Of a DNA stretch of 20,551 bases, positions 245-11,828 are shown piece by piece. The DNA comes from a virus, in the IMG/VR virus record IMGVR_UViG_3300029319_000659, positions 1-20,551 of that record; one strand, given 5' to 3'. Each line of letters starts with the position of its first letter. Positions within the stretch are counted from its first letter, which is position 1. Both the position numbers and the translations under genes were made by a program. The notes under the pieces were generated by a model that worked only from the letters and a program-made list of their open reading frames with translations, made no database searches and was not told the DNA's origin.

Positions 245-246
245 AG

Positions 247-281
247 ATTAGGACTTACGAGAAAAAGTTTTTATATTTATA
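247..281 (+). promoter_or_regulatory. Candidate promoter, 31-base conserved block, copy 1
   Basis: ATTAGGACTTACGA begins at 247, followed by an A-rich spacer and TTATATT at 271-277. The same 31-base block recurs at 7168-7198 with only three mismatches, again just upstream of a gene. The layout (conserved upstream box, spacer, TATATT-like -10) is that of a sigma-dependent promoter. This copy also runs into ATATTTATA (273-281), the element seen before several other genes here, so two promoter types may overlap. It would drive the small-gene run starting at 306. The start point is inferred, not observed. Confidence 0.6.
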
Positions 282-305
282 TATTATTAATCAAAAATAA
301 AAAAA

Positions 306-509
306 ATGGCATATTATACAGCTAAGGTTAGAATCGCGGTAGATTCACCAAAAGGAGTAAAAAGAGTAACAGAAATGTATTTAGTAAATGCTAATTCTGT
401 AACCCATGCGGAAGCAATGGTAACAAAAGACTTTGAAGGTTCAGGAGTTGACTTTGAAGTTAAAGCAGTATCCAATTCCAAGATTATTAAAGTAATCGAA
501 AACAACTAA
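306..509 (+). CDS. DUF4494-like small protein
   Basis: A 67-residue protein. The order of features, YYTAKVRI, a short loop with basic residues, VTEMYLVNANSVTHAEAMV, then VDFEVKAVSNSKIIKVI, resembles the repeat unit of DUF4494, a family I know mainly from Bacteroidota and their phages: a strand, then YLV-A-S-T-AEA leading into a helix, then a strand ending in a KI or EI pair. Function is unknown. There is no Shine-Dalgarno sequence; the leader is A-rich up to the ATG, as is common in Bacteroidota. It is the first gene after the 31-base candidate promoter. The similarity is from memory of the family pattern and needs a profile search. Confidence 0.55.
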   Translation: MAYYTAKVRIAVDSPKGVKRVTEMYLVNANSVTHAEAMVTKDFEGSGVDFEVKAVSNSKIIKVIENN

Positions 510-537
510 AAATTAAATAATAATTAAAAATTAAAAA

Positions 538-957
538 ATGGCAAAAAATTCAGTAAATTATCATGTAGGTGATAAGGTAGTAGTTAGAACAAGAACTTGG
601 TCTGGCGAAGAAAAATTACAAGTTGCAATGGTAACTCATGTTAGATATGCAACTCAATTAACTAAAAAGACTTACGACTTAAGATCGGAAGCAGGTACAG
701 CTCTTACTTATACAGGAGTTGACGAAAAGAAATCAAATCAAACAATTGTTTCAAGTATTACAGATGCATGGATTGCAAATGGTGGTACTAACAATATGTA
801 TATTCATAAGAAACATGGACATACAAGAGCTAATTTTGCATCAAATATTAAATTAAGAGCAGATGGTGAAGATATGGATTCTGATTCTTTAGTATTAGGT
901 CATTTTGAAAAACATAATGACTTTGTATTTCCAACTCAAGGACCTAGATCATTTTAA
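538..957 (+). CDS. Conserved-looking phage protein of unknown function
   Basis: A 139-residue soluble protein without a recognised domain. The N-terminus (YHVGDKVVVRTRTWSGEEKLQVAMV) looks like a small beta-barrel of the KOW/SH3 kind, where a GDxV turn starts the first strand; this is structural guesswork. The C-terminal half holds HKKHGHTRANFASNIKLR, which is basic, then an acidic stretch and a FVFPTQGPRSF tail. It is preceded by 28 bases of almost pure A/T with no Shine-Dalgarno sequence. It sits between the DUF4494-like gene and a small basic protein, probably in one transcript from the promoter near 250. Not recognised by family. Confidence 0.7.
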   Translation: MAKNSVNYHVGDKVVVRTRTWSGEEKLQVAMVTHVRYATQLTKKTYDLRSEAGTALTYTGVDEKKSNQTIVSSITDAWIANGGTNNMYIHKKHGHTRANFASNIKLRADGEDMDSDSLVLGHFEKHNDFVFPTQGPRSF

Positions 958-959
958 TT

Positions 960-1253
960 ATGGATATAACAAATAAATTTAAAAAACGAGTTCTAAAACG
1001 ATATCCTAACGCAAGACCAGTTCATTCAATGAATGGTGTACAAATTCACTCCGGTGACATATTTATTGCAAAGGAGTTTTATATGCCTGATACTGGATGT
1101 GAAGATAAAGCTTGGGAATATGCTGCAATTGCATGTAGAACCAAACAAAATTTTGATAGAACTCATCCAATGAAAATGGACTTAGGTGCTATTGAAGCAA
1201 AAATTAATAGAATTAATCGTAGAAAAAATAGAGGACGAAAACATGCTAGATAA
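960..1253 (+). CDS. Small basic hypothetical protein
   Basis: A 97-residue protein starting two bases after the upstream stop. The C-terminal 25 residues are strongly basic (INRINRRKNRGRKHAR), suggesting nucleic-acid contact. The middle carries GVQIHSGDIFIAKEFYMP and a Cys pair separated by a helix. I recognise no family. The end overlaps the methyltransferase start at 1243 by 11 bases, so the two are likely translationally coupled. Confidence 0.65.
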   Translation: MDITNKFKKRVLKRYPNARPVHSMNGVQIHSGDIFIAKEFYMPDTGCEDKAWEYAAIACRTKQNFDRTHPMKMDLGAIEAKINRINRRKNRGRKHAR

Positions 1254-2169
1254 AATTAAAAAAATGATGAGTAAAAAAGAAGAAACTCAAGAAGCAGAAG
1301 ACCTTAAGGTTTTAGACGAGCAAGTAAATGCTCAAAAAGAATCAGAACCTGCAACAGATGCAGTGCCAGAAACATACGAAGGCGATGAATATATTTCAGA
1401 TGAAGAATGGGAAGCAATGACTCCAGAACAAAGAGCTGAATACGAAGATGATGAAGATGATGAAGATTATCTTTCTGATGAAGAGTGGGATGCAATGTCA
1501 CCAGAAGAAAGACAAGCTTGGGAAGAAGGTGCAAATGAAGATGCTGTTCCAGAAAATGTTGAAGATGATAATGATCCAGATTATATTTTATCTTCGCCTG
1601 AAGTAGTTGGCTTTGATAGCTTTGATCAACAAATGGAAATGTATGATAGTGCATGCGAAGAAATAGAAGTAGAAGAATCAGTATTAGATTTTGGTTGTGG
1701 TAGAGGTGATTTATATGACTTCTTATATAGAAGAGATGGTATGGAACCAAAATATAAAGGAGTTGATATTAATGAGCCACTTATCAAAGCAGGACTTAAA
1801 AAATATGAACCAAATATTCAACTTGAATGTAAAGATTGGAACGCATTAGAACCTAATGAAACAGCAGATTGGTGTGTTAATATTGGATCGTTATGCACTC
1901 GATATGATGGTTCATCAAAAAAAGACATTGAAGTTGTAAAAGAAACAATAGATAAAATGATGCTACATTGTACAGTAGGATGTTCATTAGTATTATTTAG
2001 TTCTTATATGCCTGAAGAAGTTCGTGAAGAAGAATTTTTAATAACAGATCCAAAAGAAATTTTTGATTATGCCATTACAAAATATGGTGGTGATAATGGA
2101 AATGTAGCTTTAGATCATTCACAATCAGATTCAGCATATAAACTCGTAATTTTAAAAACACAATATTAA
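1243..2169 (+). CDS. Class I SAM-dependent methyltransferase with acidic repeated N-terminal extension
   Basis: The start was chosen at the ATG at 1243, preceded by AGAGGA; a GTG at 1186 in the same frame would add 19 residues but overlap the upstream gene by 68 bases. The product is 308 residues. Residues 147-156 (VLDFGCGRGD) are the glycine-rich SAM-binding motif I; KGVDIN about 20 residues later gives the acidic end of strand 2, and the DW region near 185 resembles motif II/III. Residues 1-140 are highly acidic and contain two copies of a 26-residue unit with the core SDEEW-AM-PE-R (see 1390-1524). The target is unknown: no DPPY or NPPY motif of N6-adenine or N4-cytosine DNA methylases is visible, so DNA methylation is not supported. 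The acidic extension may bind a basic partner or mimic nucleic acid; that is inference. Confidence 0.75.
   Translation: MLDKIKKMMSKKEETQEAEDLKVLDEQVNAQKESEPATDAVPETYEGDEYISDEEWEAMTPEQRAEYEDDEDDEDYLSDEEWDAMSPEERQAWEEGANEDAVPENVEDDNDPDYILSSPEVVGFDSFDQQMEMYDSACEEIEVEESVLDFGCGRGDLYDFLYRRDGMEPKYKGVDINEPLIKAGLKKYEPNIQLECKDWNALEPNETADWCVNIGSLCTRYDGSSKKDIEVVKETIDKMMLHCTVGCSLVLFSSYMPEEVREEEFLITDPKEIFDYAITKYGGDNGNVALDHSQSDSAYKLVILKTQY
1390..1524 (+). repeat. Two-copy 26-residue acidic repeat inside the methyltransferase gene
   Basis: Residues 50-68 read YISDEEWEAMTPEQRAEYE and residues 76-94 read YLSDEEWDAMSPEERQAWE, offset by 26 residues (78 bases). The DNA copies begin at 1390 and 1468. The protein match is much closer than the DNA match, which suggests an old duplication kept by selection. 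Confidence 0.85.
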
Positions 2170-2179
2170 AAATAGTAAT

Positions 2180-2482
2180 ATGAAACAAAAACAAAAATTT
2201 AGATCAAGCATAAACCAAGTAGCGGCTATGGATTCAGATAAGTTAAAACATTTAGGAAAAAATTATACTAGTATAGATTTTTCAATTAAAGAACATGTTA
2301 GTCCAGATGATTTTAAATATGCAAAAATGAAACCAGTTGTTGGATCATTTATCATAGGAAATAAACATGTAGATGTTACATACTCAGAATTAAATCAAAT
2401 CATGAGAACAGCTAATACAGCAATGCAAGCTTGTGATATGGCTTACCGTATGGGTAAATGGGGTAAAGCCAAAGATAGATAA
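2180..2482 (+). CDS. Hypothetical protein, about 100 residues
   Basis: The N-terminus is basic (KQKQKFRSS). The middle region resembles a small alpha/beta domain (VVGSFIIGNKHVDVTYSELNQIM), followed by a helical C-terminus rich in Met and Ala (TANTAMQACDMAYRMGKWG). No family recognised. The leader (AAAAATAGTAAT) has no Shine-Dalgarno sequence. The stop overlaps the next ATG as TAATG, so coupling with the 2482 gene is expected. Confidence 0.6.
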   Translation: MKQKQKFRSSINQVAAMDSDKLKHLGKNYTSIDFSIKEHVSPDDFKYAKMKPVVGSFIIGNKHVDVTYSELNQIMRTANTAMQACDMAYRMGKWGKAKDR

Positions 2483-2718
2483 TGGGATTTCATAAACGAT
2501 ATATTGATGATGATCAAGTAATTGATCTATATAGAAATGATGGATGCCAAGCGGTTATTGATTGGTATACAAAAGGAGCAGATGCTTTGATATTATCTGG
2601 ACCATTATCTGAAACTGTTAATACTTTATTGAACATATATAGAGTAGATAAGACAAGAGGATGGAATAGAATTTCAGAAACAATTGCAGAAGCATCCATT
2701 GAAAAGATGAAAAATTGA
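2482..2718 (+). CDS. Small hypothetical protein
   Basis: A 78-residue, probably mostly helical protein (YIDDDQVIDLYRNDGCQAV; LSETVNTLLNIY; ISETIAEASIEKMK). It starts inside the upstream stop (TAATG). No family recognised. Its stop is the last element before the ATATTTATA motif at 2718, so it probably ends this small operon. Confidence 0.6.
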   Translation: MGFHKRYIDDDQVIDLYRNDGCQAVIDWYTKGADALILSGPLSETVNTLLNIYRVDKTRGWNRISETIAEASIEKMKN

Positions 2719-2731
2719 TATTTATATAAAA
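2718..2731 (+). promoter_or_regulatory. ATATTTATA element, site 2
   Basis: ATATTTATA (2718-2726) followed by TAAAA lies 14 bases before the ATG at 2741. It matches the intergenic element also seen at 273, 3362, 5309, 10090 and 11793. The short distance would leave a very short leader if this is a promoter. Confidence 0.5.
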
Positions 2732-2740
2732 GAAGCGTAT

Positions 2741-2938
2741 ATGGCAAATTATGGTATGTATATGAAAAGTTCTAATGAGAATAGTCAGCATATTAACACA
2801 ATTCAAATGCCGACTATTGAGCAAGCAGAAGCTTATTTTGCTGGTCGTAAACAAATGACATTGGAACAATTTCGTTCATTATTTTTAGTACGAGAAATAA
2901 AGGACTCAACCAAAGGACTAATGTATGGGAATAGATAA
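2741..2938 (+). CDS. Small hypothetical protein
   Basis: A 65-residue protein without a recognised family. It contains TIEQAEAYFAGRKQMTLEQFRSLF, an amphipathic helical stretch, and a charged end. It is preceded by AGAAG, a weak ribosome binding site, 6-10 bases before the ATG. Its last 14 bases overlap the start of the 2925 gene in another frame, arguing that both are real and coupled. Confidence 0.55.
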   Translation: MANYGMYMKSSNENSQHINTIQMPTIEQAEAYFAGRKQMTLEQFRSLFLVREIKDSTKGLMYGNR

Positions 2939-3362
2939 ATTACAAATCGAGCAAGAAGAATATAATTTTTTTACATCATTAAAAGATAAAGAAAAAATTG
3001 AATTTTTACACGATGCCCAGTCCATAGGATTAGATTTATCTATAGAAAAATTTGTATCAAGAATAATTGAAACAAAAGAAGATAAAATTAAAAAACAACC
3101 ATTCAATGAATTGTTTCAAGATACGCTTCATGATGAAATAATATCATCAAATAAAAAAATAATTATTACAACTATGAATAATTATTTGCATCTAAATTCA
3201 GATAGTTTATCATTAATTAGACAATTTGTATTTAAGTTATTTGATGATGGACATATTTTATTTAGACATAAAAATGCAAAAAAGATACCTGGTGTAGATA
3301 GATTGCGTTTTTATAGATGCTATGAAATAATTGGTTCGGGCAATCCTTTTTGTCCAAACTAA
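2925..3362 (+). CDS. Hypothetical protein, about 145 residues
   Basis: A charged, largely helical protein without a recognised family. The N-terminal half is rich in Lys/Glu (LQIEQEEYNFFTSLKDKEKIEF), and the C-terminal half has LSLIRQFVFKLFDDGHILFRHKN, then a GVDRLRFYRCYEI segment. The helix-turn-strand order at the C-terminus could fit a small winged-helix fold, but no motif proves it. It starts within the previous gene and ends at 3362, where the next regulatory element begins. Confidence 0.6.
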   Translation: MGIDKLQIEQEEYNFFTSLKDKEKIEFLHDAQSIGLDLSIEKFVSRIIETKEDKIKKQPFNELFQDTLHDEIISSNKKIIITTMNNYLHLNSDSLSLIRQFVFKLFDDGHILFRHKNAKKIPGVDRLRFYRCYEIIGSGNPFCPN

Positions 3363-3378
3363 TATTTATATTAAATAA
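3362..3378 (+). promoter_or_regulatory. ATATTTATA element, site 3 (upstream of hsp20)
   Basis: ATATTTATATTAAATAA starts at 3362, directly at the stop of the previous gene. It is identical over 17 bases to the element at 11793 before the baseplate genes. The hsp20 ATG lies at 3457, so a transcript from here would carry a leader of roughly 75-85 bases that includes the GC-rich arm at 3393 and the stem at 3410. Confidence 0.6.
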
Positions 3379-3392
3379 TCGAGTGATACTTT

Positions 3393-3402
3393 GCGGGTCG
3401 GT
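3393..3402 (+). repeat. Left arm of GC-rich inverted repeat flanking hsp20
   Basis: GCGGGTCGGT; its exact reverse complement ACCGACCCGC lies at 3878-3887, just after the hsp20 stop. Eight of ten bases are G or C, in contrast to the AT-rich surroundings. The arm is followed by another CGGT, giving GGTCGGTCGGT. The pair could be a mark of insertion, or could pair in the mRNA and join the 5' and 3' untranslated ends. Confidence 0.8.
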
Positions 3403-3409
3403 CGGTTAC

Positions 3410-3427
3410 GTTAAAACAATGTTTAAC
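3410..3427 (+). promoter_or_regulatory. Small stem-loop in the hsp20 leader
   Basis: GTTAAA (3410-3415) and TTTAAC (3422-3427) are perfect complements around a 6-base loop. It lies 16 bases before the AAGGAG at 3443. The stem is AT-rich and weak, so it could melt with temperature; a role is only a guess. Confidence 0.35.
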
Positions 3428-3456
3428 AAAAATTAATTATTTAAGGAGATTATATT

Positions 3457-3870
3457 ATGGGAAATTTAACTCACTTTGGCACATCGCCATTCGACATCCT
3501 TTTTAAGGATTTTTTCAAATCAAATGAAGATTATCAGTTCGCTGATGCAACCAAGATTAACCATCCAGTAGATATATATGAAGCCAACAATGGTCTCAAT
3601 ATTGATATTGCATGTGTAGGTCTTACAAAAAAAGATATTGATCTTACTATCGAGGGAGATATCCTGCGTGTAGAATACAAAAAAGATAATGATTCTAATC
3701 ATGCAGAATACATTCAAAGGAACATAGCAAAACGAGCATTTAACTTTGGATGGAGAATTAGCAGAAGATTTGATTTATCAAAATTAGATGCTAAATTAGA
3801 AAACGGTTTATTACATTTGTTTGCTCCCCTAACAGAAGATAATAAACCAAAATCAGTTACAATTAAGTAA
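3457..3870 (+). CDS. hsp20: Small heat-shock protein (Hsp20/alpha-crystallin family)
   Basis: A 137-residue protein matching the length of IbpA-like small heat-shock proteins, ATP-independent holdases that bind unfolding proteins in oligomers. The alpha-crystallin domain spans about residues 35-128: PVDIYEANNGLNIDIACVG, then DIDLTIEGDILRVEYKK, then FDLSKLDAKLENGLLHLFAP, which holds the family A-x-x-x-NGLL-x-x-x-P signature. The tail ends in VTIK, a V-x-I version of the I-x-I oligomer motif. Hsp20 genes are widespread in aquatic T4-like phages, where a role in capsid or tail folding is suspected. A strong AAGGAG lies 8 bases before the ATG. The first two thirds use more GC-ending codons than the neighbours, and the gene is framed by a GC-rich inverted repeat, both hints of separate acquisition. 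Confidence 0.92.
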   Translation: MGNLTHFGTSPFDILFKDFFKSNEDYQFADATKINHPVDIYEANNGLNIDIACVGLTKKDIDLTIEGDILRVEYKKDNDSNHAEYIQRNIAKRAFNFGWRISRRFDLSKLDAKLENGLLHLFAPLTEDNKPKSVTIK

Positions 3871-3877
3871 ATGAATC

Positions 3878-3887
3878 ACCGACCCGC
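3878..3887 (-). repeat. Right arm of GC-rich inverted repeat flanking hsp20
   Basis: ACCGACCCGC, exact reverse complement of 3393-3402, starting seven bases after the hsp20 stop codon. In the transcript it would sit in the 3' untranslated end. Confidence 0.8.
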
Positions 3888-3891
3888 ATTC

Positions 3892-3907
3892 ACCGGTTAT
3901 AACCACC
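3892..3907. repeat. Palindrome GGTTATAACC downstream of hsp20
   Basis: GGTTATAACC at 3895-3904 is a perfect 10-bp palindrome with ACC on both sides. With no loop and no T-run it is a poor terminator; it may be a protein-binding site, or the end of a short acquired segment. Confidence 0.4.
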
Positions 3908-3929
3908 TTTAAAGAACGATTTATAAATT

Positions 3930-4136
3930 ATGCAAGTCAACAATTATATAGATTTCAATGGTAAGAAACTTATTATAAAACGAACGTTTAAAGTAGAAAG
4001 TTTAAAACCAGATTTTGATACTAATATTATGAAACAGTGGACTAGATCTGATACGTTATTAAAGAAGGATGGTTGGTTATATTGCTGTGAAACTATTCAA
4101 GATGCAGAAATTATTTCCGAAGAATCATTAGGATAA
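3930..4136 (+). CDS. Small hypothetical protein
   Basis: A 68-residue protein, probably a small beta-rich fold (NNYIDFNGKKLIIKRTFKV, then DGWLYCCETIQDAEIISEE). No family recognised and no clear Shine-Dalgarno sequence. It follows the hsp20 cassette and precedes the UV endonuclease by 48 bases. Codon use looks like a real gene, but its coding status rests mainly on frame and packing. Confidence 0.55.
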   Translation: MQVNNYIDFNGKKLIIKRTFKVESLKPDFDTNIMKQWTRSDTLLKKDGWLYCCETIQDAEIISEESLG

Positions 4137-4150
4137 TTGAAAAAATTTTC

Positions 4151-4160
4151 TTATATTAAA
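4151..4160 (+). promoter_or_regulatory. TTATATTAAA element before the UV endonuclease gene
   Basis: TTATATTAAAT matches the right part of the elements at 3362 and 11793 but lacks the ATA that opens them. It lies 24 bases before the ATG at 4185, in an almost pure A/T spacer. It would fit a -10 hexamer TATATT, but such A/T-only matches also arise easily by chance. Confidence 0.35.
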
Positions 4161-4184
4161 TATAAAATAACTAATAAAAATTGT

Positions 4185-5270
4185 ATGAATAATAAAGTAA
4201 GACTAGGTTATGCTTGTGTTAATATGGGCTTAACTAATCGTAAAAAAAAGCATGGAGGTAAAGTCACCACTTCCAGAACAGCTAGAAAAGCAACTTGGCA
4301 ATTAGGATCAGATAATCCAGAAGATTGGGATTATAGTTTAGTAGGCGAAAAAGCATTACTTAATGCTACTGATTTATTACATTATCTTAAATGGAACGAA
4401 GAACATGGTATTAGATTATTCCGTGTAGGTTCTGAATTATTTCCATGGCATGATCATTATGAATTAAAACAATTACCTCAGTTACCTGAAATATCTGAAC
4501 GATTAATGGAAGCTGGTAATTATGCTCGAAAACATGGTCATAGATTAACTACCCATCCAGGACCATTTCATGTATTAGGATCACCAAATCAAGATGTAGT
4601 AGAAAAATCAATTATTGGTTTAGAACGTCATTCTGAAATGTGGGATCTTATGGGATATGAACCATCATTCGAAAATAAGATTAATATTCATGTTGGCGGT
4701 GCATATGGTGATCATGCAGCTACAGCTAAACGTTGGATTAAAACATGGCATCGATTATCAGATAGATTAAAAGCTAGATTAGTTCTTGAGAATGATGATA
4801 AGCCATCAATGTGGTCAACTCGAATGTTATACGATTATTTTCATAAAGAAATTGGAATTCCAATTACATTTGATTATCATCATCATAGATTCCATCCAGA
4901 TGATATGACCGAACAAGAAGCTTTAGAACTAGCTAGATCGACATGGCCAGAAGGAGTTAGGCAATGTACTCATTATTCAGAATCAAGACGTAGAGAGAAA
5001 GAAGGTAGGTTAAGACAATTATGTGAAAATAATAATATTAATTTTGAAGATCTCGATAATGAAGATGAATGGCCAACATTTTCTAAATTGAAAAAGAAAT
5101 GGGCAAAGACGCGTGAAAATGCTCATTCAGATTATATTATCAATGAAATCGATACATATGGTCATGATTTAGATATTGTTGTAGAAGCTAAGGCCAAAGA
5201 ATTGGCAGTTTTAGGATGGAGAAAAAAGTATAGACAAAAAAATAAGCCAGAATTGGCTCAAATAAGTTAA
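4185..5270 (+). CDS. uvsE: UV damage endonuclease (UvsE/UVDE family)
   Basis: A TIM-barrel endonuclease that cuts 5' of cyclobutane dimers and other lesions. The ATG at 4185 gives 361 residues and opens directly with VRLGYACVNMGL, the family signature; an upstream TTG at 4137 only adds an atypical leader. Conserved pieces follow in order: FRVGSELFPWH (residues 79-89), THPGPFHVLGSP (123-134), IHVGGAYGDH (168-177), LVLENDD (199-205), TFDYHHHRFHPD (228-239), THYSES (262-267), and HSDYI plus DIVVEAKAKE near the end. Likely metal ligands are H89, H124, H169, E202, D230, H233, H263 and E334. The thermophile enzyme has a modified lysine two residues before the last His; here that position appears to be C261. 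This may be a natural variant or my misalignment. Phage copies presumably repair sunlit virion DNA. Confidence 0.9.
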   Translation: MNNKVRLGYACVNMGLTNRKKKHGGKVTTSRTARKATWQLGSDNPEDWDYSLVGEKALLNATDLLHYLKWNEEHGIRLFRVGSELFPWHDHYELKQLPQLPEISERLMEAGNYARKHGHRLTTHPGPFHVLGSPNQDVVEKSIIGLERHSEMWDLMGYEPSFENKINIHVGGAYGDHAATAKRWIKTWHRLSDRLKARLVLENDDKPSMWSTRMLYDYFHKEIGIPITFDYHHHRFHPDDMTEQEALELARSTWPEGVRQCTHYSESRRREKEGRLRQLCENNNINFEDLDNEDEWPTFSKLKKKWAKTRENAHSDYIINEIDTYGHDLDIVVEAKAKELAVLGWRKKYRQKNKPELAQIS

Positions 5271-5384
5271 AATATAATATATTAATTAATTAATAATATT
5301 AATATCTAATATTTATAATAAATAATAATTTAATAATAATTATGCAAAAGCTAAGTCAAACCACCGAAAAAAGGAGAAAATGTT
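5271..5384 (+). promoter_or_regulatory. AT-only intergenic tract with ATATTTATA element (site 4) and ribosome binding site
   Basis: From 5271 to about 5341 the sequence is almost entirely A and T. ATTAATTAATTAAT (5281-5294) is a perfect palindrome with near-matching AATAT/ATATT arms outside. ATATTTATA at 5309-5317 followed by ATAAATAA is the recurring element. Downstream, AAGGAG (5371-5376) serves the ATG at 5385. No other gene is seen in this gap. Confidence 0.55.
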
Positions 5385-5564
5385 ATGAGTAGTGTAAAAA
5401 ATCCACAAAATGTAAAGCGTCAACTAGATGAAGTTGATAATATGATCATGATTCTTGAAGATACGATTCGAAGAGGAATGAAAATAGATCCATCTGAAGC
5501 GCAGCGAAGATTTAAGGTTATTCGAGAAAAAATTAAATTTGCTCAAGATAATATACAAGGATAA
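5385..5564 (+). CDS. Small helical protein, 59 residues
   Basis: An open frame from ATG 5385 to TAA 5562-5564, with a strong AAGGAG eight bases upstream and only two bases before the next gene. It encodes MSSVKNPQNVKRQLDEVDN, an ILEDTIRRGMKIDPSEAQRR middle and a KVIREKIKFAQDNIQG end: charged heptad-like helices suggesting a short coiled coil. No family recognised. The strong ribosome site, promoter-like element and tight coupling to the membrane protein make it credible despite its size. Confidence 0.75.
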   Translation: MSSVKNPQNVKRQLDEVDNMIMILEDTIRRGMKIDPSEAQRRFKVIREKIKFAQDNIQG

Positions 5565-5566
5565 TT

Positions 5567-6628
5567 ATGAAGAAATATCTCTTGCCAATATTTATAGGAT
5601 TGTCTGCACTTGCCGTATCTGGCTCTGCAGCTTTCTATTCAGTTTTTGGTTTGAGTAAATTATTCGCAGGAGCAAGCTTGCAAGTTATAATAATGGCTGG
5701 TTCATTAGAATTTGCTAAACTTGTTTGTGCGTCCTTGTTATATCAATATTGGGGTACAATAAATAAATGGTTACGATTTTATTTATCTGTAGCAGTGTTT
5801 GTTTTAATGTTAATTACATCTGGAGGTATATACGGATTCTTATCAGGAGCTTATCAGGAAACAGCAACCAAATCAGAGTTCCTTGATAAATCTTTATTAG
5901 TGTTACAAACTAAACAAAATCGTTTTGAAGAAAACAAAACTGATTTAACATTAGAAAAATCGCAATTGAATGCAACCATATCTGATTTAAGAACATCATT
6001 ATCTAATCCAGCACAAGTACAATATGTAGATAGAGAATCAGGACAGTTAATAACAACAACATCAACATCAGCAAGAAAGGCATTACAAAAAGAATTGGAT
6101 GCGACGATTGTAGATAGAAATGATATAAACTTAAAGTTAGAAGCTGTGCAAGATTCTATTATGAGATTAGATACTGAATTGTTAGAACTTGAAATAGGTA
6201 ATGAAGAACAAAGAGAATTAGGACCGTTAAAATATTTAGCAGAAACGACTGGTAAAGAAATGAACCAAGTTGTAAACTGGTTTTTACTTTTAATAATATT
6301 TGTATTTGATCCATTAGCAATTGCAATGGTAGTAGCAGCTAATTTTGCATTTGCTCAAATAAAAAGAAAGGAACCAGAAGTGAAAATGTCTGTTCCAGAC
6401 GGAATGGAATTTGATAAATCTTATCCAATAGATATTTCTGAAGATGATGAGAAGCGAATGGATATAATTGGACAAAATGGAAATGATGGTATTCATTATG
6501 ATCAAGAAGAAATGATTAAAAAGAATGAAGAAATATTAGCTACACCTAAAGAAGATATATATCAAGAAAAAGAAGAAAGTCAAGAAGAAGCATATCAACG
6601 TAAAAAACGTTGGGGTACAAAAGGTTAA
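5567..6628 (+). CDS. Membrane protein with four predicted transmembrane helices and a periplasmic or cytoplasmic coiled coil
   Basis: A 353-residue protein. Hydrophobic helices lie at about residues 4-26, 36-60, 70-95 and 236-264. Residues 98-232 form a long, Gln/Glu/Lys-rich coiled coil (KQNRFEENKTDLTLEKSQLN; LQKELDATIVDRNDINLKLE), and the last 85 residues are a charged, acidic tail. Three helices, a coiled coil, one helix and a polar tail resembles the layout of DUF4407 bacterial membrane proteins, though I cannot show homology. Similar proteins occur, as I recall, in other aquatic T4-like phages, with no known role. It is one operon with the small helical protein at 5385. Superinfection exclusion, lysis control or envelope remodelling are all possible; none is supported directly. 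Confidence 0.8.
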   Translation: MKKYLLPIFIGLSALAVSGSAAFYSVFGLSKLFAGASLQVIIMAGSLEFAKLVCASLLYQYWGTINKWLRFYLSVAVFVLMLITSGGIYGFLSGAYQETATKSEFLDKSLLVLQTKQNRFEENKTDLTLEKSQLNATISDLRTSLSNPAQVQYVDRESGQLITTTSTSARKALQKELDATIVDRNDINLKLEAVQDSIMRLDTELLELEIGNEEQRELGPLKYLAETTGKEMNQVVNWFLLLIIFVFDPLAIAMVVAANFAFAQIKRKEPEVKMSVPDGMEFDKSYPIDISEDDEKRMDIIGQNGNDGIHYDQEEMIKKNEEILATPKEDIYQEKEESQEEAYQRKKRWGTKG

Positions 6629-6642
6629 CAAAAATTAAAAAT

Positions 6643-7167
6643 ATGGCAAAGAAAAAAGTTACAAATAAATTTAAAACACGTAAACGAAATGGTACAACAT
6701 ATATGATATGTCGCAATAGTATTGTAGATACAAATTATTGGGCATGGAATATACTTTCAAAGCATCCAAGATGTAATGAATGGTCAGAAGTAGGAGAAGG
6801 AGCTACTGCAGTACTATGTTATAAATGTGTTAATAAAACAGTCGGACCACCAGAAATAAGAAGTGGATATAAATCAACTGGTAGAATGAGAGGTTGGCAA
6901 TTTATGAAAGAATTTGTAGATGCACAAGGTAATGTATTTCATAAAGGCGTTGAGCAACCAAAACTTAAAGGAACTCTTAAACCAACACCACCAGCACCAG
7001 TTAAAAAGAAACTATCTAAAAATGAAAAAGAAGAATTGAGAACATCAATTCTAAAACAAATGGCTATGGTAAGAGGTAATCTTAAAACTGCAAAATTTAA
7101 AAAAGATATCAAAGCAGGTAATGTTCAAATGAGACGTTTAGAACGTAAACTAAAAAAGATTAGATAA
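6643..7167 (+). CDS. Basic cysteine-containing phage protein of unknown function
   Basis: A 174-residue protein. The ATG at 6643 follows an A-rich leader; an in-frame TTG at 6610 lies inside the previous gene and is less likely. The N-terminus is basic (KKKVTNKFKTRKRNG). Cysteines in MICRNS, HPRCNEW and LCYKCV may form a zinc-binding site. GRMRGWQFMKEFVDAQGN with the later GVEQPKLKGTLKPT is a block I associate with conserved phage proteins. A Pro-rich linker leads to a Lys/Arg-rich helical C-terminus (RRLERKLKKIR). Basic ends and a possible zinc site suggest nucleic-acid binding; no function is established. Confidence 0.7.
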   Translation: MAKKKVTNKFKTRKRNGTTYMICRNSIVDTNYWAWNILSKHPRCNEWSEVGEGATAVLCYKCVNKTVGPPEIRSGYKSTGRMRGWQFMKEFVDAQGNVFHKGVEQPKLKGTLKPTPPAPVKKKLSKNEKEELRTSILKQMAMVRGNLKTAKFKKDIKAGNVQMRRLERKLKKIR

Positions 7168-7198
7168 ATTAGGACTTACGAAAAAAAATTGTTATATT
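7168..7198 (+). promoter_or_regulatory. Candidate promoter, 31-base conserved block, copy 2
   Basis: ATTAGGACTTACGA begins at 7168, then an A-rich spacer and TTATATT at 7192-7198. It differs from the block at 247-277 at three of 31 positions. It directly precedes the five-gene ClpP-to-sigma operon, with the ATG only 10 bases after the -10-like element. Confidence 0.65.
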
Positions 7199-7207
7199 AG
7201 GATTAAT

Positions 7208-7840
7208 ATGAATTTATACGAAGAACGACAAATGCCTGAAAACGAAAAGGTACAGCCAGAAGAATATGATGTTAATCCGTATATTGATTTGACAGATGTT
7301 TTAAACTCATATGTTGATTTTGATGATTCGGTTATATTTTTTAATGATGATATTGGTGAAAGAACAATTATTGATTTAATGATACGATTTAGATCATTAC
7401 TAAAGTATAGAGACTCAGCAGAATATAAAGGATCACCAGAAGCTCCAATTAATCTTGTATTAAATAGTCCAGGAGGAGAAATTCATGAAATGATGGGAGT
7501 AATAGATTATTTAAATTCTATCAAACCACAAGTTAATATAATAGTTCGTGGTAGAGCATTTTCGGCCGCGGCAGTAATATTAGCATCAGCAACTGGTAAA
7601 CGAATGGCTAGTGAGAATGCTACTATTATGTTTCATCAACCTAGATCAATGATGGAAGGAAAGTTAACTGATGTAACTGCTACATTAGAATATGTACAAA
7701 AAATAGAACAAACAGTATATAATTTATTAGCAAGTAAATCAAATAAAACTGTTGAATGGTGGAAAGATAATATGAGATCCGATTTATATTTATCAGCTAA
7801 AGAAGCAAAAGAAATAGGAGTAATTGATATAGTAATATGA
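7208..7840 (+). CDS. clpP: ClpP-like serine protease
   Basis: A 210-residue protein of the ClpP/crotonase fold, the usual ClpP length. The parts are in order: an oxyanion-site strand NLVLNSPGGEIHEMM (residues 82-96), nucleophile loop GRAFSAAAVILASA with S119, MFHQP with H143, and RSDLYLSAKEAKEIGVID with D192. The catalytic triad is therefore complete. Host ClpP normally forms a barrel fed by a Clp ATPase; no ATPase lies nearby, so this copy may join host ClpX/ClpA, or act on phage proteins such as prohead parts. The N-terminal 25 residues are acidic and unlike the processing region of cellular ClpP. It leads an overlapping operon (ATGA junction at 7837) behind the second copy of the 31-base promoter block. 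Confidence 0.88.
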   Translation: MNLYEERQMPENEKVQPEEYDVNPYIDLTDVLNSYVDFDDSVIFFNDDIGERTIIDLMIRFRSLLKYRDSAEYKGSPEAPINLVLNSPGGEIHEMMGVIDYLNSIKPQVNIIVRGRAFSAAAVILASATGKRMASENATIMFHQPRSMMEGKLTDVTATLEYVQKIEQTVYNLLASKSNKTVEWWKDNMRSDLYLSAKEAKEIGVIDIVI

Positions 7841-8226
7841 TAGAACATGTAATATATAAAGGACCACAAAAATTAACACCTAATCAGAAAAGATGGTCAA
7901 AACGCTATATAAAAAAATCAGGTACTGATTTTATTTTTGAACCACCTGAAGAATATCATGAAGTATGTGAATGGGAAAATGGTTGGATTGATTTTACTGT
8001 TGATAAAGATTATAATGTTCTATTTATTCATTCAATGTATTGTAATAAACCTGATACCAATCTTGCAATGATTGAAACATTTAAATTAGCAGTTGATTTA
8101 GCCAAACAGAGAAACTGTAATGCAATAGAATGGGATACAAGAAGACCATTTAGAGCATGGAAAAGATTAGCCAAAAATATTGGAAACGTAAAAATAATAA
8201 CAAGACAATTAAGAATTGAAATATGA
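7837..8226 (+). CDS. Hypothetical protein, possibly GNAT-fold
   Basis: A 129-residue protein. The C-terminal half has NLAMIETFKLAVDLAKQRNCNAIEWDTRRPFRAWKR in two pieces: a helix, then a Cys-x-x-IEWDT strand, then RAWKR, which resembles the end of GNAT acyltransferases, where a helix, an outer strand and a second helix with conserved Ala/Trp occur in that order. The acetyl-CoA loop (Q/R-x-x-G-x-G/A) is not clearly present, so the activity is uncertain. It overlaps both neighbours by four bases (ATGA), so it is translated with ClpP and the HD protein. Confidence 0.65.
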   Translation: MIEHVIYKGPQKLTPNQKRWSKRYIKKSGTDFIFEPPEEYHEVCEWENGWIDFTVDKDYNVLFIHSMYCNKPDTNLAMIETFKLAVDLAKQRNCNAIEWDTRRPFRAWKRLAKNIGNVKIITRQLRIEI

Positions 8227-9014
8227 AATTATCAGCAGAACAAATAGTACAAAATTGGAACGACTTAATCAATTTTATTAAAAATAATTTTGAAGGCGAA
8301 AGAAAAGAAAAACTTTTAGCAATGTATACAGATCTTGAAGAAAGAATGTCAATGCAACCTGCTTCGAGTATTGACCATTATCATAATGCATTTGAAGGTG
8401 GTTATGTAGATCATGTATTACGAGTAATTAAATGTGCTCAACAAGTATATAATCTTTGGCAAGGTATGGGTGCAGATATGTCTGGTTATACTCAAGAAGA
8501 ATTATTATTTGTAGCATTGAATCATGATATAGGTAAAATGGGATTTCCTGGAGAAGGTAACGAAACATACTTACCAAATGATTCTGAATGGCATAGAAAA
8601 AATATGGGAAAGATGTATAAAGTTAATCCTAATAATCAATTTACTCTTGTAAATGATCTATCTATTTGGTTATTACAACATTATGGTATTAGTATATCTT
8701 GGAATGAAATGCTAGGAATAAAATTAACTGATGGATTATATGATGAAAACAATAAACCTTATTTCATGTCAAGAACAGCTGATTCAAAATTAAAAACAAA
8801 TTTAGGTTTTGTAATGCATCAAGCTGATTGCATGGCTGCTAGAATAGAATATGAAATGTGGGCAAAGACAAAATCAAATGTTAAGCCATCTACACCAGTT
8901 AATCAATCATATGGTAAAAAAGCTAGAGCTCAAAAATTAAGTAATATAGCATCAAATAGTAATGCTACATCTACATTAAAAATGTTCGATGATTTATTTG
9001 GAGATAAAAAATGA
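8223..9014 (+). CDS. HD-domain phosphohydrolase
   Basis: A 263-residue metal-dependent hydrolase. GGYVDHVLRV supplies H64, LNHDIGKMGF supplies the HD pair H101-D102, a helix carries H153, and HQADCMAAR gives the last acidic ligand at D202. This is the H...HD...D layout of the HD superfamily, which cleaves phosphomonoesters or phosphodiesters, including nucleotides and cyclic nucleotides. A YhaM-like nuclease or nucleotidase role is possible; the substrate cannot be read from the sequence. The C-terminal tail is Ser/Asn-rich and likely disordered. It shares ATGA overlaps with the genes on both sides. Confidence 0.82.
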   Translation: MKLSAEQIVQNWNDLINFIKNNFEGERKEKLLAMYTDLEERMSMQPASSIDHYHNAFEGGYVDHVLRVIKCAQQVYNLWQGMGADMSGYTQEELLFVALNHDIGKMGFPGEGNETYLPNDSEWHRKNMGKMYKVNPNNQFTLVNDLSIWLLQHYGISISWNEMLGIKLTDGLYDENNKPYFMSRTADSKLKTNLGFVMHQADCMAARIEYEMWAKTKSNVKPSTPVNQSYGKKARAQKLSNIASNSNATSTLKMFDDLFGDKK

Positions 9015-9298
9015 TGACAGCAATAATAATATTATCAGTTGTATTAGCAATATCATTACTTGTTAATATAAACCAGTTAAGAAAACAAGAAGATCAAACA
9101 GATTATATTAATGATTTAGAAACATCAAATACAAATTATTATAACTTTTTTGAACAATTAAAAACAAAAGTGAATCAAGCCAACTCTGAAATTAGAAACG
9201 CAGATAGAATAGGAGCATTTGAAAATTCAGACGAAGTAGGCACATCATTTAAAATTATAAAAGAAGTGATGGAGGACCTAAATCGTGGAGTTAATTAA
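9011..9298 (+). CDS. Small single-pass membrane protein with coiled coil
   Basis: A 95-residue protein. Residues 3-21 (TAIIILSVVLAISLLVNIN) form one transmembrane helix, followed by a charged coiled-coil region. The end, RIGAFENSDEVGTSF with IIKEVMEDLN, is a block I recognise from other aquatic phage proteins, without a known role. It overlaps the HD gene (stop TGA at 9012) and the sigma gene (TAATG). Confidence 0.7.
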   Translation: MMTAIIILSVVLAISLLVNINQLRKQEDQTDYINDLETSNTNYYNFFEQLKTKVNQANSEIRNADRIGAFENSDEVGTSFKIIKEVMEDLNRGVN

Positions 9299-10083
9299 TG
9301 AGCGCAGTAGATAAATTTTATATTTGGTTAGAAGAAGATAAATTACGTTTGGAAAAAGAAGCTAAACTTCCAAAGAAAAAGAAACGTGGTAGAAAGCCAA
9401 CTAAAAAAATGTATTTTTCATACATTAATGAGCAGGCTATTATAGCATATAATAAAGAAACAGATCAGTTAAAACGAGATAAAATTTATCGAGAATATAT
9501 TAATTATCCGTTTAACAAACTTGTTGAAAATATTATTCATACATTTAAATTTTATTATTTTGATGTTCCGTATAATGATGTAAAAGCTGAAGTGGTAGCA
9601 TTCTTAAACGAAAAAATACATAAGTTTACAGAAGGTAAAGGAAAAGCTTTTTCTTACTTTAGTATTATAGCAAAAAATTATTTAATTATTGCAAATAATG
9701 CTAACTATGCTAAATTAAAACAAAGAGCTGAATTATCAGTTATTGATGAAGTTAGAGATTTAGGAGGAGAAGCATCATATTCTGATTATCAGGAAACGTT
9801 AAGAGATTTTACAAATCAGTTTGTTGAATATTATGATAAAAATTTAAATAAATTATTTTCAAATAAACGTGACATCATAGTAGCAGATTCATTATTAGAA
9901 TTATTTCGTATACGACAAAACATTGAAAACTTTAATAAAAAAGCTTTGTATATATTGATTAGAGAAAGAACAGGATTAAAGACTCAAAATATTACAAAAG
10001 TTGTTAATAGATTTAAAAAAGATTTTACAGCAATGTTTTTATTATATCAAAGAACAGGTCATTTCTTGAAACCAAAATCCTAA
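9298..10083 (+). CDS. gp55: Phage late sigma factor, gp55-like
   Basis: A 261-residue protein resembling the RNA polymerase sigma factor that T4-like phages use for late promoters. YPFNKLVENIIHTFKFYY (residues 70-87) matches the first helices of sigma region 2, and GKGKAFSYFSIIAKNYLI (113-130) matches the conserved region 2 segment that contacts core enzyme and the -10 element. The N-terminus carries KKKKRGRKPTKK, an AT-hook-like basic stretch. A region 4 is not evident, as in gp55, which relies on a co-activator. T4 gp55 is shorter (185 residues), so about 75 residues are extra, mostly at the ends. It closes the ClpP operon and stands directly before the virion module, as expected for a late switch. 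Confidence 0.75.
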   Translation: MSAVDKFYIWLEEDKLRLEKEAKLPKKKKRGRKPTKKMYFSYINEQAIIAYNKETDQLKRDKIYREYINYPFNKLVENIIHTFKFYYFDVPYNDVKAEVVAFLNEKIHKFTEGKGKAFSYFSIIAKNYLIIANNANYAKLKQRAELSVIDEVRDLGGEASYSDYQETLRDFTNQFVEYYDKNLNKLFSNKRDIIVADSLLELFRIRQNIENFNKKALYILIRERTGLKTQNITKVVNRFKKDFTAMFLLYQRTGHFLKPKS

Positions 10084-10089
10084 GTCCTT

Positions 10090-10107
10090 ATATTTATAAT
10101 AAAGGAG
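10090..10107 (+). promoter_or_regulatory. ATATTTATA element (site 5) merging into ribosome binding site
   Basis: ATATTTATA at 10090-10098 is followed by ATAAAGGAG, so the element runs straight into AAAGGAG (10101-10107), seven bases before the ATG at 10114. If it is a promoter, the start point would fall in or at the ribosome site, giving an almost leaderless message. Confidence 0.55.
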
Positions 10108-10113
10108 TTAGTT

Positions 10114-10488
10114 ATGCATGACGAATTTGAATTATTCAAAGGAACTACATTTTCAGATTTAATGAAAGATATCTATCACAATTCAAAAAAGAAAGATAGG
10201 CAAATCAATACATTAATTCAAGAATTACAACCATTAATAAAAAATATTGGAGATGCGACAGTAATAGTCCCTTTAATAAAAGAATATCTAGATGTTTCTG
10301 TTAAAAACGATGAACATTTAGTTAAACTAGCTGCAGTAGTTCAAAGATTAGTTGGTTCAGCATCAAAAGATGATGGAGGAGAATTTGGAATGTCAGAAGA
10401 AGAAAAAGCTAGACTATTACAAACAGCTCAAGAAGAACTAGATGCAATACATAAAGAACAAGACGAAATAAATTTAGGAGGTAAATAA
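10114..10488 (+). CDS. Conserved-looking helical protein at the head of the virion module
   Basis: A 124-residue, mostly helical protein: FELFKGTTFSDLMKDIYHNS, then INTLIQELQPLIKNIGDATV, IVPLIKEYLDVSVKNDEHLV, KLAAVVQRLVG and a charged coil. I recall relatives upstream of baseplate spike genes in aquatic T4-like phages, but no function is known. A virion or assembly role is inferred from position only. Strong AAAGGAG upstream; the stop overlaps the spike start as TAATG. Confidence 0.7.
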   Translation: MHDEFELFKGTTFSDLMKDIYHNSKKKDRQINTLIQELQPLIKNIGDATVIVPLIKEYLDVSVKNDEHLVKLAAVVQRLVGSASKDDGGEFGMSEEEKARLLQTAQEELDAIHKEQDEINLGGK

Positions 10489-11552
10489 TGCCAAAAGTTT
10501 TAGAAGTTTTAGATACTACAGCCGCATTTAAAAATGAACCAGAAGATGAAAATGGAGAAAGATTACCATTAGGATCAGTAAAGGTAAGAACTGCAGGTGG
10601 TGGTGGTAAGAAAAATTTTAAAGATGAATGGGCTGTTCCATTAGGACCTGTTAAACGTATACCATTAGTAGGCGAACATGTAATAACAATGCGTGGCCCG
10701 TCATGGGGTGCAGGTCAAGGAGAAAATCCTGAACGAGCATATTATATGATGTCTTGTAATGTACAAGATAATTTAAATATTGGTATTTTACCACAAACGT
10801 TTTTACGTGGTAGAAACAATCCAGTAGGTAGATTAGGTGATTTCATAAACTCATTAGGTAATCCCCAAAGAGAAGATCCTGAAGATCCATTTATAGGACA
10901 AACATTTCAAGAAACAGATACAGTTAAGCCTGTACAGCCATATGAAGGAGATACAATACTTGAAAGTCGATTTGGTCAAGTAATTCGAATGTCATCTACT
11001 GTAACCAATAGTCCACATCCAGATGCAACAGAAGGTATTGATTTATACGAAATCAAAGCATGTGCAGATTGGGAAGGTGGAACAATGCAGTCGTCACCAA
11101 TAATGATTATTACAAACGGACTTGCACCAGTAGGTGGACCTGCAACATATACAAAAGAAAGTTTTGAAGATGATAAAGCTACAATATGTATGACATCAGG
11201 CCAAAAACTTAAAAGATTTGAAACTGCTCAATCTAATTTAGGTCAAGGTGTTGATCAAGCAAATAAATCTGAAGTTAGTCAAGTTATAATTAGTTCTGAT
11301 AGATTAGTATTTAATGCCAAAGAAGAACACGTAATTTTATCAGCCAAGGAATCAGTACAAATTGCAACACCTGATTGGGCAGCTGATATGAATGAAGTAT
11401 TATCAATAATGGATGAATTCTTGCAAGCGATGCAAAAAATAACAAGTGGTCAATCTCAATATCCAACACCAGTTGGAGGTCCCACATTAGCAAATCCAGA
11501 AGCTGGAACAATTCAGGCATTAGTACAACGAATGGCTCAGTTAAAACAATAG
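10488..11552 (+). CDS. gp5: Baseplate central spike protein, gp5-like, without lysozyme domain
   Basis: A 354-residue protein. Residues 50-90 hold an oligosaccharide-binding (OB) type beta domain with PLVGEHVITM and the tyrosines of AYYMM. YEGDTILESRFGQVIRM (about 152-168) begins a second beta section typical of spike proteins in aquatic phages. Residues 264-292 (SQVIISSDRLVFNAKEEH, then VILSAKESVQI) look like the short repeated strands of a triple-stranded beta-helix, as in T4 gp5 and VgrG tips. T4 gp5 has a lysozyme domain between these parts; here the space lacks the E-D-T catalytic layout, so the spike probably does not cut peptidoglycan. A C-terminal helical and Pro/Gly tail follows. It acts at the tip of the tail tube when it pierces the envelope. 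Confidence 0.75.
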   Translation: MPKVLEVLDTTAAFKNEPEDENGERLPLGSVKVRTAGGGGKKNFKDEWAVPLGPVKRIPLVGEHVITMRGPSWGAGQGENPERAYYMMSCNVQDNLNIGILPQTFLRGRNNPVGRLGDFINSLGNPQREDPEDPFIGQTFQETDTVKPVQPYEGDTILESRFGQVIRMSSTVTNSPHPDATEGIDLYEIKACADWEGGTMQSSPIMIITNGLAPVGGPATYTKESFEDDKATICMTSGQKLKRFETAQSNLGQGVDQANKSEVSQVIISSDRLVFNAKEEHVILSAKESVQIATPDWAADMNEVLSIMDEFLQAMQKITSGQSQYPTPVGGPTLANPEAGTIQALVQRMAQLKQ

Positions 11553-11561
11553 GAGAATAAT

Positions 11562-11765
11562 ATGCCGTTAATATTACCAAATTTACAAAGAGATATAGCA
11601 AAAGCTTTAAACAAATCTCAAAAAGCAAAATCACCAGGAGAAGGTGAAAGAATATTTGCACAACAATTAGCAATTGCAATCGATAAATATATAAAATCAG
11701 GAACTGTTAACACAGCCGTGGCAACGACAGGTGGAGCAGGAACGGGAGTAGGAGCAATCACGTAA
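11562..11765 (+). CDS. Small protein in the baseplate operon
   Basis: A 67-residue protein. The N-terminal half is helical and basic (LQRDIAKALNKSQKAKSPGE), while the end is a flexible, Gly/Ala/Thr-rich run (ATTGGAGTGVGAIT) after a SGTVNTAV strand. AGGAG at 11551-11555, partly inside the spike stop, serves the ATG. A capsid or tail accessory role is possible from position; the family is not recognised. The minus-strand frame over this region is a shadow. Confidence 0.65.
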   Translation: MPLILPNLQRDIAKALNKSQKAKSPGEGERIFAQQLAIAIDKYIKSGTVNTAVATTGGAGTGVGAIT

Positions 11766-11792
11766 AAAACTACCAACATTTAGTATACCCTG

Positions 11793-11828
11793 ATATTTAT
11801 ATTAAATAACAATAGATAGGAGTATACT
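11793..11828 (+). promoter_or_regulatory. ATATTTATA element (site 6) and ribosome binding site
   Basis: ATATTTATATTAAATAA begins at 11793, identical over 17 bases to the one before hsp20 (3362). AGGAG at 11818-11822 follows, six bases before the ATG at 11829. It is a likely promoter for the gp25/gp6 baseplate run. Confidence 0.6.

Follow-up and report, generated by a model that had tools for sequence, protein, structure and literature searches.

The stretch of DNA analysed here, hereafter the window, is the entire 20,551-base record of an uncultured marine virus; it has about 30% G+C and is probably a genome fragment. Nearly all of its credible genes lie on the + strand, among them baseplate wedge genes (gp25- and gp6-like), uvdE, and genes for HSP20 and DUF4494 proteins. 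The UvdE UV endonuclease is phage-encoded (4137-5270, Pfam E 2.7e-56), near the HSP20 gene. Among isolates, Flavobacterium phage immuto and Microcystis phage Mel-JY01 come closest, with 42-53% identity in the gp6-like protein. In the window and in three related contigs (G001, G002 and G003) start codons are preceded by a G-rich, Shine-Dalgarno-like peak at about -11 to -8, with GGA, GAG or AGG at that position in about 50-65% of genes. Typical Bacteroidota have no Shine-Dalgarno signals, so this peak would be unusual if the host is one of them.

The initial annotation described a single element, ATATTTATA, in the gaps before six genes and once more inside a gene. We confirmed the gap copies at 273, 2718, 3362, 5309, 10090 and 11793, and found the in-gene copy to be real and coding, at 5588 rather than 5590. 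Every one of the seven copies lies on the + (gene) strand. By chance 2.57 copies are expected on both strands summed, and seven or more were reached in 1 of 100 shuffles. Six of the seven lie in gaps or at a gap edge, in a window with about 4% gap sequence (P about 6e-8), and the core ATATTTAT is found six times in window gaps versus 0.8 expected from an AT-matched Markov model of gaps. The automatic gap count had given seven cores, from which we removed the one at 1059 because it falls in an ORF (960-1253) that the gene caller missed. Gene calling for the gap counts was done with a simple caller and these counts carry a small error, which leaves the strand counts of the strict word, being independent of the gene caller, untouched.

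Five copies match a stricter form, ATATTTATWWWAAA, with the tail WWWAAA, and all five are in gaps (2718, 3362, 5309, 10090 and 11793). The sixth gap copy, at 273, had been misfiled and belongs to a host-type two-box promoter described below. The downstream (A/T)TAAA that had been noted as mostly present occurs at four sites, with TAAAA at 2718 and TATTA at 273. The pattern ATATTTATANWTAAA, one base too long, has zero matches. The in-gene copy (5588..5596, + strand; ATA TTT ATA, encoding Ile-Phe-Ile) was rejected as a member of the system, since it is coding and has no WWWAAA tail, and is a chance occurrence.

Each of the five strict elements, all on the + strand, is a putative late promoter. 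The first (ATATTTATATAAAA, 2718..2731) overlaps the stop codon of gene 2482-2718 and has a predicted start site at about 2731, with the next gene beginning at 2741; the orthologous gap in five related contigs (G001, G008, G009, L043 and L045) contains the same element with an ATG exactly at motif base 14. The second (ATATTTATATTAAA, 3362..3375) lies at the stop of gene 2925-3362, with a predicted start site at about 3375 and the HSP20 gene following at 3457. The third (ATATTTATAATAAA, 5309..5322) is followed by a small ORF from about 5385 and then by the 5567/5582 gene, and is conserved in the orthologous gap of three relatives (G001 17337, G008 16711, G009 15902). The fourth, with the same sequence as the third (ATATTTATAATAAA, 10090..10103), sits between a gene for a sigma-like protein and gene 10114, with a predicted start site at about 10103 that would leave a leader of about 11 nt. 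Its word ATATTTATWWWAAAGG is kept behind the sigma-like gene, before the next ATG, in most of about 45 related contigs while the flanking bases drift, and is present behind the same gene in Flavobacterium phage immuto at 78884. The fifth (ATATTTATATTAAA, 11793..11806) precedes a baseplate operon (11829 onward, including the gp25-like and gp6-like wedge genes), and is conserved before that operon in G001 (25693), G008 (24702), G009 (24453), G003 (64718) and G002 (102394).

Counting the element per strand relative to gene direction in the related phages, as had been proposed, gave a bias toward the gene strand: 280 forward versus 1 reverse match to strict ATATTTATWWWAAA in relatives that total about 2.3 Mb and are partly redundant. 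Because the related contigs overlap in part, the 180 distinct forward sites over all fetched relatives are the safer figure. Ratios for individual contigs were 23:1, 18:0, 20:0, 8:0, 8:0, 7:0 and 6:0, the majority strand being the gene strand, and the sole reverse match in the 23:1 contig overlaps a forward site; a letter-reversed control of ATATTTATWWWAAA gave nearly 0 in single contigs. Frequencies in genes and gaps also remain unequal once AT content is corrected for: across five contigs and the window ATATTTAT occurs 118 times forward and 5 times reverse in gaps, versus 39 and 52 times in genes, and it is the most enriched gap octamer (107 versus 12.6 expected), its reverse complement occurring 4 times versus 14.5 expected. 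A 93-kb relative (G004) has ATATTTAT forward in gaps at 23:2, but its tail is less strict and the A run follows at a variable distance. Mel-JY01 shows a weak strand bias only (26:13), and strict ATATTTATWWWAAA has no match in T4, RM378, the cyanophage S-PRM1 or ACP17.

A matrix built from 109 gap sites is a single 14-base block, (C/T)ATATTTAT A (T/A)(T/A) AAA, in which bases 9-14 form an AT-rich stretch directly downstream of the core; no -35 box or other upstream information was detected down to -44 in these sites. The position of start codons relative to this block is also constrained. Measured from the first base of the element at the 180 distinct sites, the first usable ATG lies at an offset of 13 in 11 cases, at 14-17 in none; all other offsets are 18 or more, peaking at 22-26 and usually within 18-44 nt. 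Two genes of immuto likewise have their ATG at offset 13, and one gene family has a conserved protein start that lies at offset 13 in some phages and farther away in others. Since start codons are found at base 14 or from base 19 onward, with none at 15-18, we infer that transcription starts near base 14, placing ATATTTAT at -13 to -6, such that an mRNA would either be leaderless or leave room for a ribosome site. This geometry predicts that some late mRNAs are leaderless, as would be those from sites 10514 and 74566 of immuto.

The same pattern might be thought to reflect an element acting in RNA, a translation enhancer, processing site or regulator-binding site in the 5' leader, in place of a DNA promoter: the word is found forward only, just upstream of starts, and often runs into an AAAGG Shine-Dalgarno-like stretch. 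We consider this very improbable, given that the element can lie anywhere from 13 to over 170 nt before the ATG (a minority of sites lying beyond 70 nt), that the ATG overlaps the last base of the element in several genes, that sites are mostly at the heads of gene blocks, and that a sigma factor appears to be encoded by these phages.

As the initial annotation correctly recorded, the reverse complement of all seven ATATTTATA sites contains the exact T4 late octamer, TATAAATA, which led to the suggestion that late promoters might be bidirectional or drive antisense RNA. The octamer has no forward copy in the window, and of 99 gap copies in large contigs 84 oppose the genes and 15 are forward, forward TATAAATA being without enrichment. 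However, base 9 of the element is either A or T, and the T present in 29% of sites destroys the reverse octamer while leaving the forward word intact (for example ATATTTATTTTAAAGG in L006, L010 and L014); that the forward word outlives this change is the simplest evidence on direction. The conserved AAA at bases 12-14 lies on the wrong side of the octamer, and the region that would have to melt for reverse transcription is not AT-rich; bases -3 to 0, where the RNA would begin, are C-richer than the gap background. There are almost no genes on that strand to drive, and the start codons obey a limit on the forward side. A working late promoter on the opposite strand is therefore highly improbable; the word is nearly palindromic, and the bidirectional or antisense reading arises as a by-product of this. 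Judged from the related phages, the orientation of ATATTTATWWWAAA is settled as forward.

The copy at 273 calls for a separate explanation. It is the -7 box of a predicted host-type (Bacteroidota sigma-A-like) promoter, GATTAG-N20-TATATTTA (246..279, + strand), before the DUF4494 gene (306-509); the orthologous gap contains the same two boxes in G008 and ATTAGG at the same spacing in G001. A second candidate, TTAG-N20-TATATTAG (7169..7200, + strand), was read from the gap before gene 7208, which is ClpP-like from its sequence, and shares TTAGGACTTACG with site 248. The class as a whole, GATT(T/A)G-N20-TATCTTTA, accounts for 20 forward gap sites in the relatives and the window in which the spacer is exactly 20, with almost none at other spacers; it is seen at 246-279 and 7169-7200 and in relatives G001, G002, G003 and G008. 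G002 often carries it as a longer repeat, AAAAAGATTTGCCTAATTGAAATAT...CTTATCTTTATAT. The -33 consensus of Bacteroidota sigma-A is TTTG, and the host-type class has TTTG or TTAG there. At the -7 position, the TATCTTTA class fits the published Bacteroidota sigma-A consensus TAnnTTTG (PMC9723704). The same phages thereby have, before other genes that are presumably early, a host-type promoter separate from the late element.

With copy 273 and a few sites in relatives having GATTAG or TTTG exactly 20 nt upstream, it could be supposed that all copies are host sigma-A promoters whose TAnnTTTG-type -7 boxes happen to read TATATTTA. There is no -33 box in 77 of 82 AAA-tailed gap sites, T precedes ATATTTAT in only 31% of sites, and the host-type class is marked by a consensus of its own with a rigid 20-nt spacer, all of which makes the proposal extremely improbable; for the five strict sites it is contradicted, as they lack both the -33 box and the set spacer. 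Finally, we give virtually no credence to chance production of ATATTTATA by AT-rich gaps in an AT-rich window, because AT-matched Markov models of three long contigs predict 4-5 gap copies of ATATTTAT versus 26-38 seen (29/4.0, 26/4.8 and 38/4.5 observed/expected), and no strand bias would be expected.

The genes downstream of the element are what suggest its timing. Across the related phages it precedes portal, gp73-type, post-capsid, head completion, sheath, tube, hub, baseplate and fibre genes in the same direction, in positions that correspond between separate phages (orthologous gaps), and is sparse across long runs of metabolic and replication genes. In immuto, which is cultured (laboratory host Flavobacterium sp. 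LMO8), it is found before TerL, sheath, tube and hub genes, the last three with ATATTTAT elements at 146992, 149171 and 149759, and CTATTTATAAATAAA stands before the portal gene. Elements mostly head gene blocks and do not precede each gene. Some stand before unknown or non-structural genes (small ORFs, HSP20, glycosyltransferase), and so 'late' is assigned from the bulk of the class and not copy by copy.

A candidate reader of the element is encoded directly before the late element at 10090, by a gene (9298..10083, + strand) for a 261-residue sigma-factor-like protein. Its predicted structure, of fair confidence (pLDDT 80.7), has mostly sigma factors as structural neighbours, matched over region 2, with a few such as SigW reaching the C-terminal part as well; E. 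coli sigma-E aligns with Z 8.3 over 101 residues at 3.2 A, and such values are middling and easily reached by helical proteins. In a viral library the model matches sigma factors including annotated gp55 late sigma factors. Sequence searches of PHROGs, Pfam and PDB gave no convincing match to the protein, whose identification is accordingly based on its fold, and comparing profiles with gp55 gave a weak result (probability 7%, E 0.005). The late-sigma HMM phrog_234 matches only the orthologue of this protein in immuto, gp118 (E 0.008), and has zero matches in the other relatives, as does phrog_12791 in the relatives. It is the consistency of the neighbour list, the uniqueness of the phrog_234 match in immuto and the place just before a late element that make the case for a sigma factor. 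The protein is likely the reader of the late element, and its kinship to T4 gp55 is probable. The pairing of this protein with the motif is not universal: a 484-kb uncultured phage (LR756508) encodes homologues of the sigma-like and gp6-like proteins (100339-106638, 41-44% identity), and ATATTTATWWWAAA is absent from the 49 kb around these genes. The late signal of LR756508 must differ from ATATTTATWWWAAA.

Several observations strongly support the earlier suggestion that a modified late motif is read in the forward direction: the orientation of the element, its location in gaps, its conservation upstream of late genes, the lack of a -35 box, the start-codon pattern and a spacing to the ATG that resembles that of T4. 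We conclude that the five strict elements are very probably forward one-box late promoters belonging to a T4-related myovirus that infects Bacteroidota-type hosts, with its own sigma-like protein as the proposed reader. We hypothesize that the core (C/T)ATATTTAT replaces the T4 TATAAATA -10-type box with no -35 box, and would be recognized by the phage sigma-like protein (9298-10083) on host RNA polymerase; the AWWAAA stretch downstream of the core would then melt, and RNA would begin at about motif base 14 and run into the next gene or operon, an mRNA being leaderless where the start codon is exactly at base 14. It is tempting to speculate more broadly, and only tentatively, about a branch of T4-related Bacteroidota phages with a two-domain sigma (region 2 plus a region-4-like C-terminus), a TT-centre one-box promoter, no T4-type clamp and some leaderless late mRNAs. 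If the promoter assignment is true, late operons could be marked from sequence alone in a large group of marine T4-related phages, most of them uncultured; immuto, being cultured, makes the prediction testable. It would also imply that the sigma factor of a phage, together with its promoter, can drift away from TATAAATA to TATTTAT without loss of the one-box layout, and that a lookalike of the T4 octamer does not necessarily signal antisense transcription when it lies on the 'wrong' strand.

Compared with known systems, on sequence evidence the element class is a real, conserved, forward variant of the T4-type late promoter and newly described; a literature search, with most subscription journals outside it, found nothing relevant on the motif. 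T4 late promoters read TATAAATA at -13 to -6, about a helical turn upstream of the start site, and are served by gp55, gp33 and the sliding clamp gp45. Like the elements described here, they consist of a single AT-rich box at the -10 position with no -35 element and an AT-rich segment downstream before late structural genes and about 20-36 nt from the ATG (PMC2988020); measured by the method used here, TATAAATA lies 22-36 nt before most ATGs of T4, overlapping the 18-44 nt usual for the present element. They differ in the core, where only the central AA has become TT (TAT-TT-AT versus TAT-AA-AT in T4), in the conserved AAA at bases 12-14, and in the ATGs that sometimes lie exactly at the predicted start site. 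A T4-type clamp was also not detected: the model PF02916 recovers the T4 clamp and finds nothing in G001-G003, immuto or Mel-JY01, a result that divergent clamps could escape, and clamp activation in the T4 style is accordingly not supported. Compared with Bacteroidota sigma-A promoters, a form of which these phages use before other genes including that following copy 273, the late elements lack the -33 box and fixed 20-nt spacer. In cyanophages (NATAAATA) and Aeromonas phage Aeh1 (a/gC at -13/-12) the T4 box has lineage-specific variants, accompanied by homologues of gp55 (PMC2984593, PMC2988020); those variants keep the central AAA, whereas the centre here is TTT.
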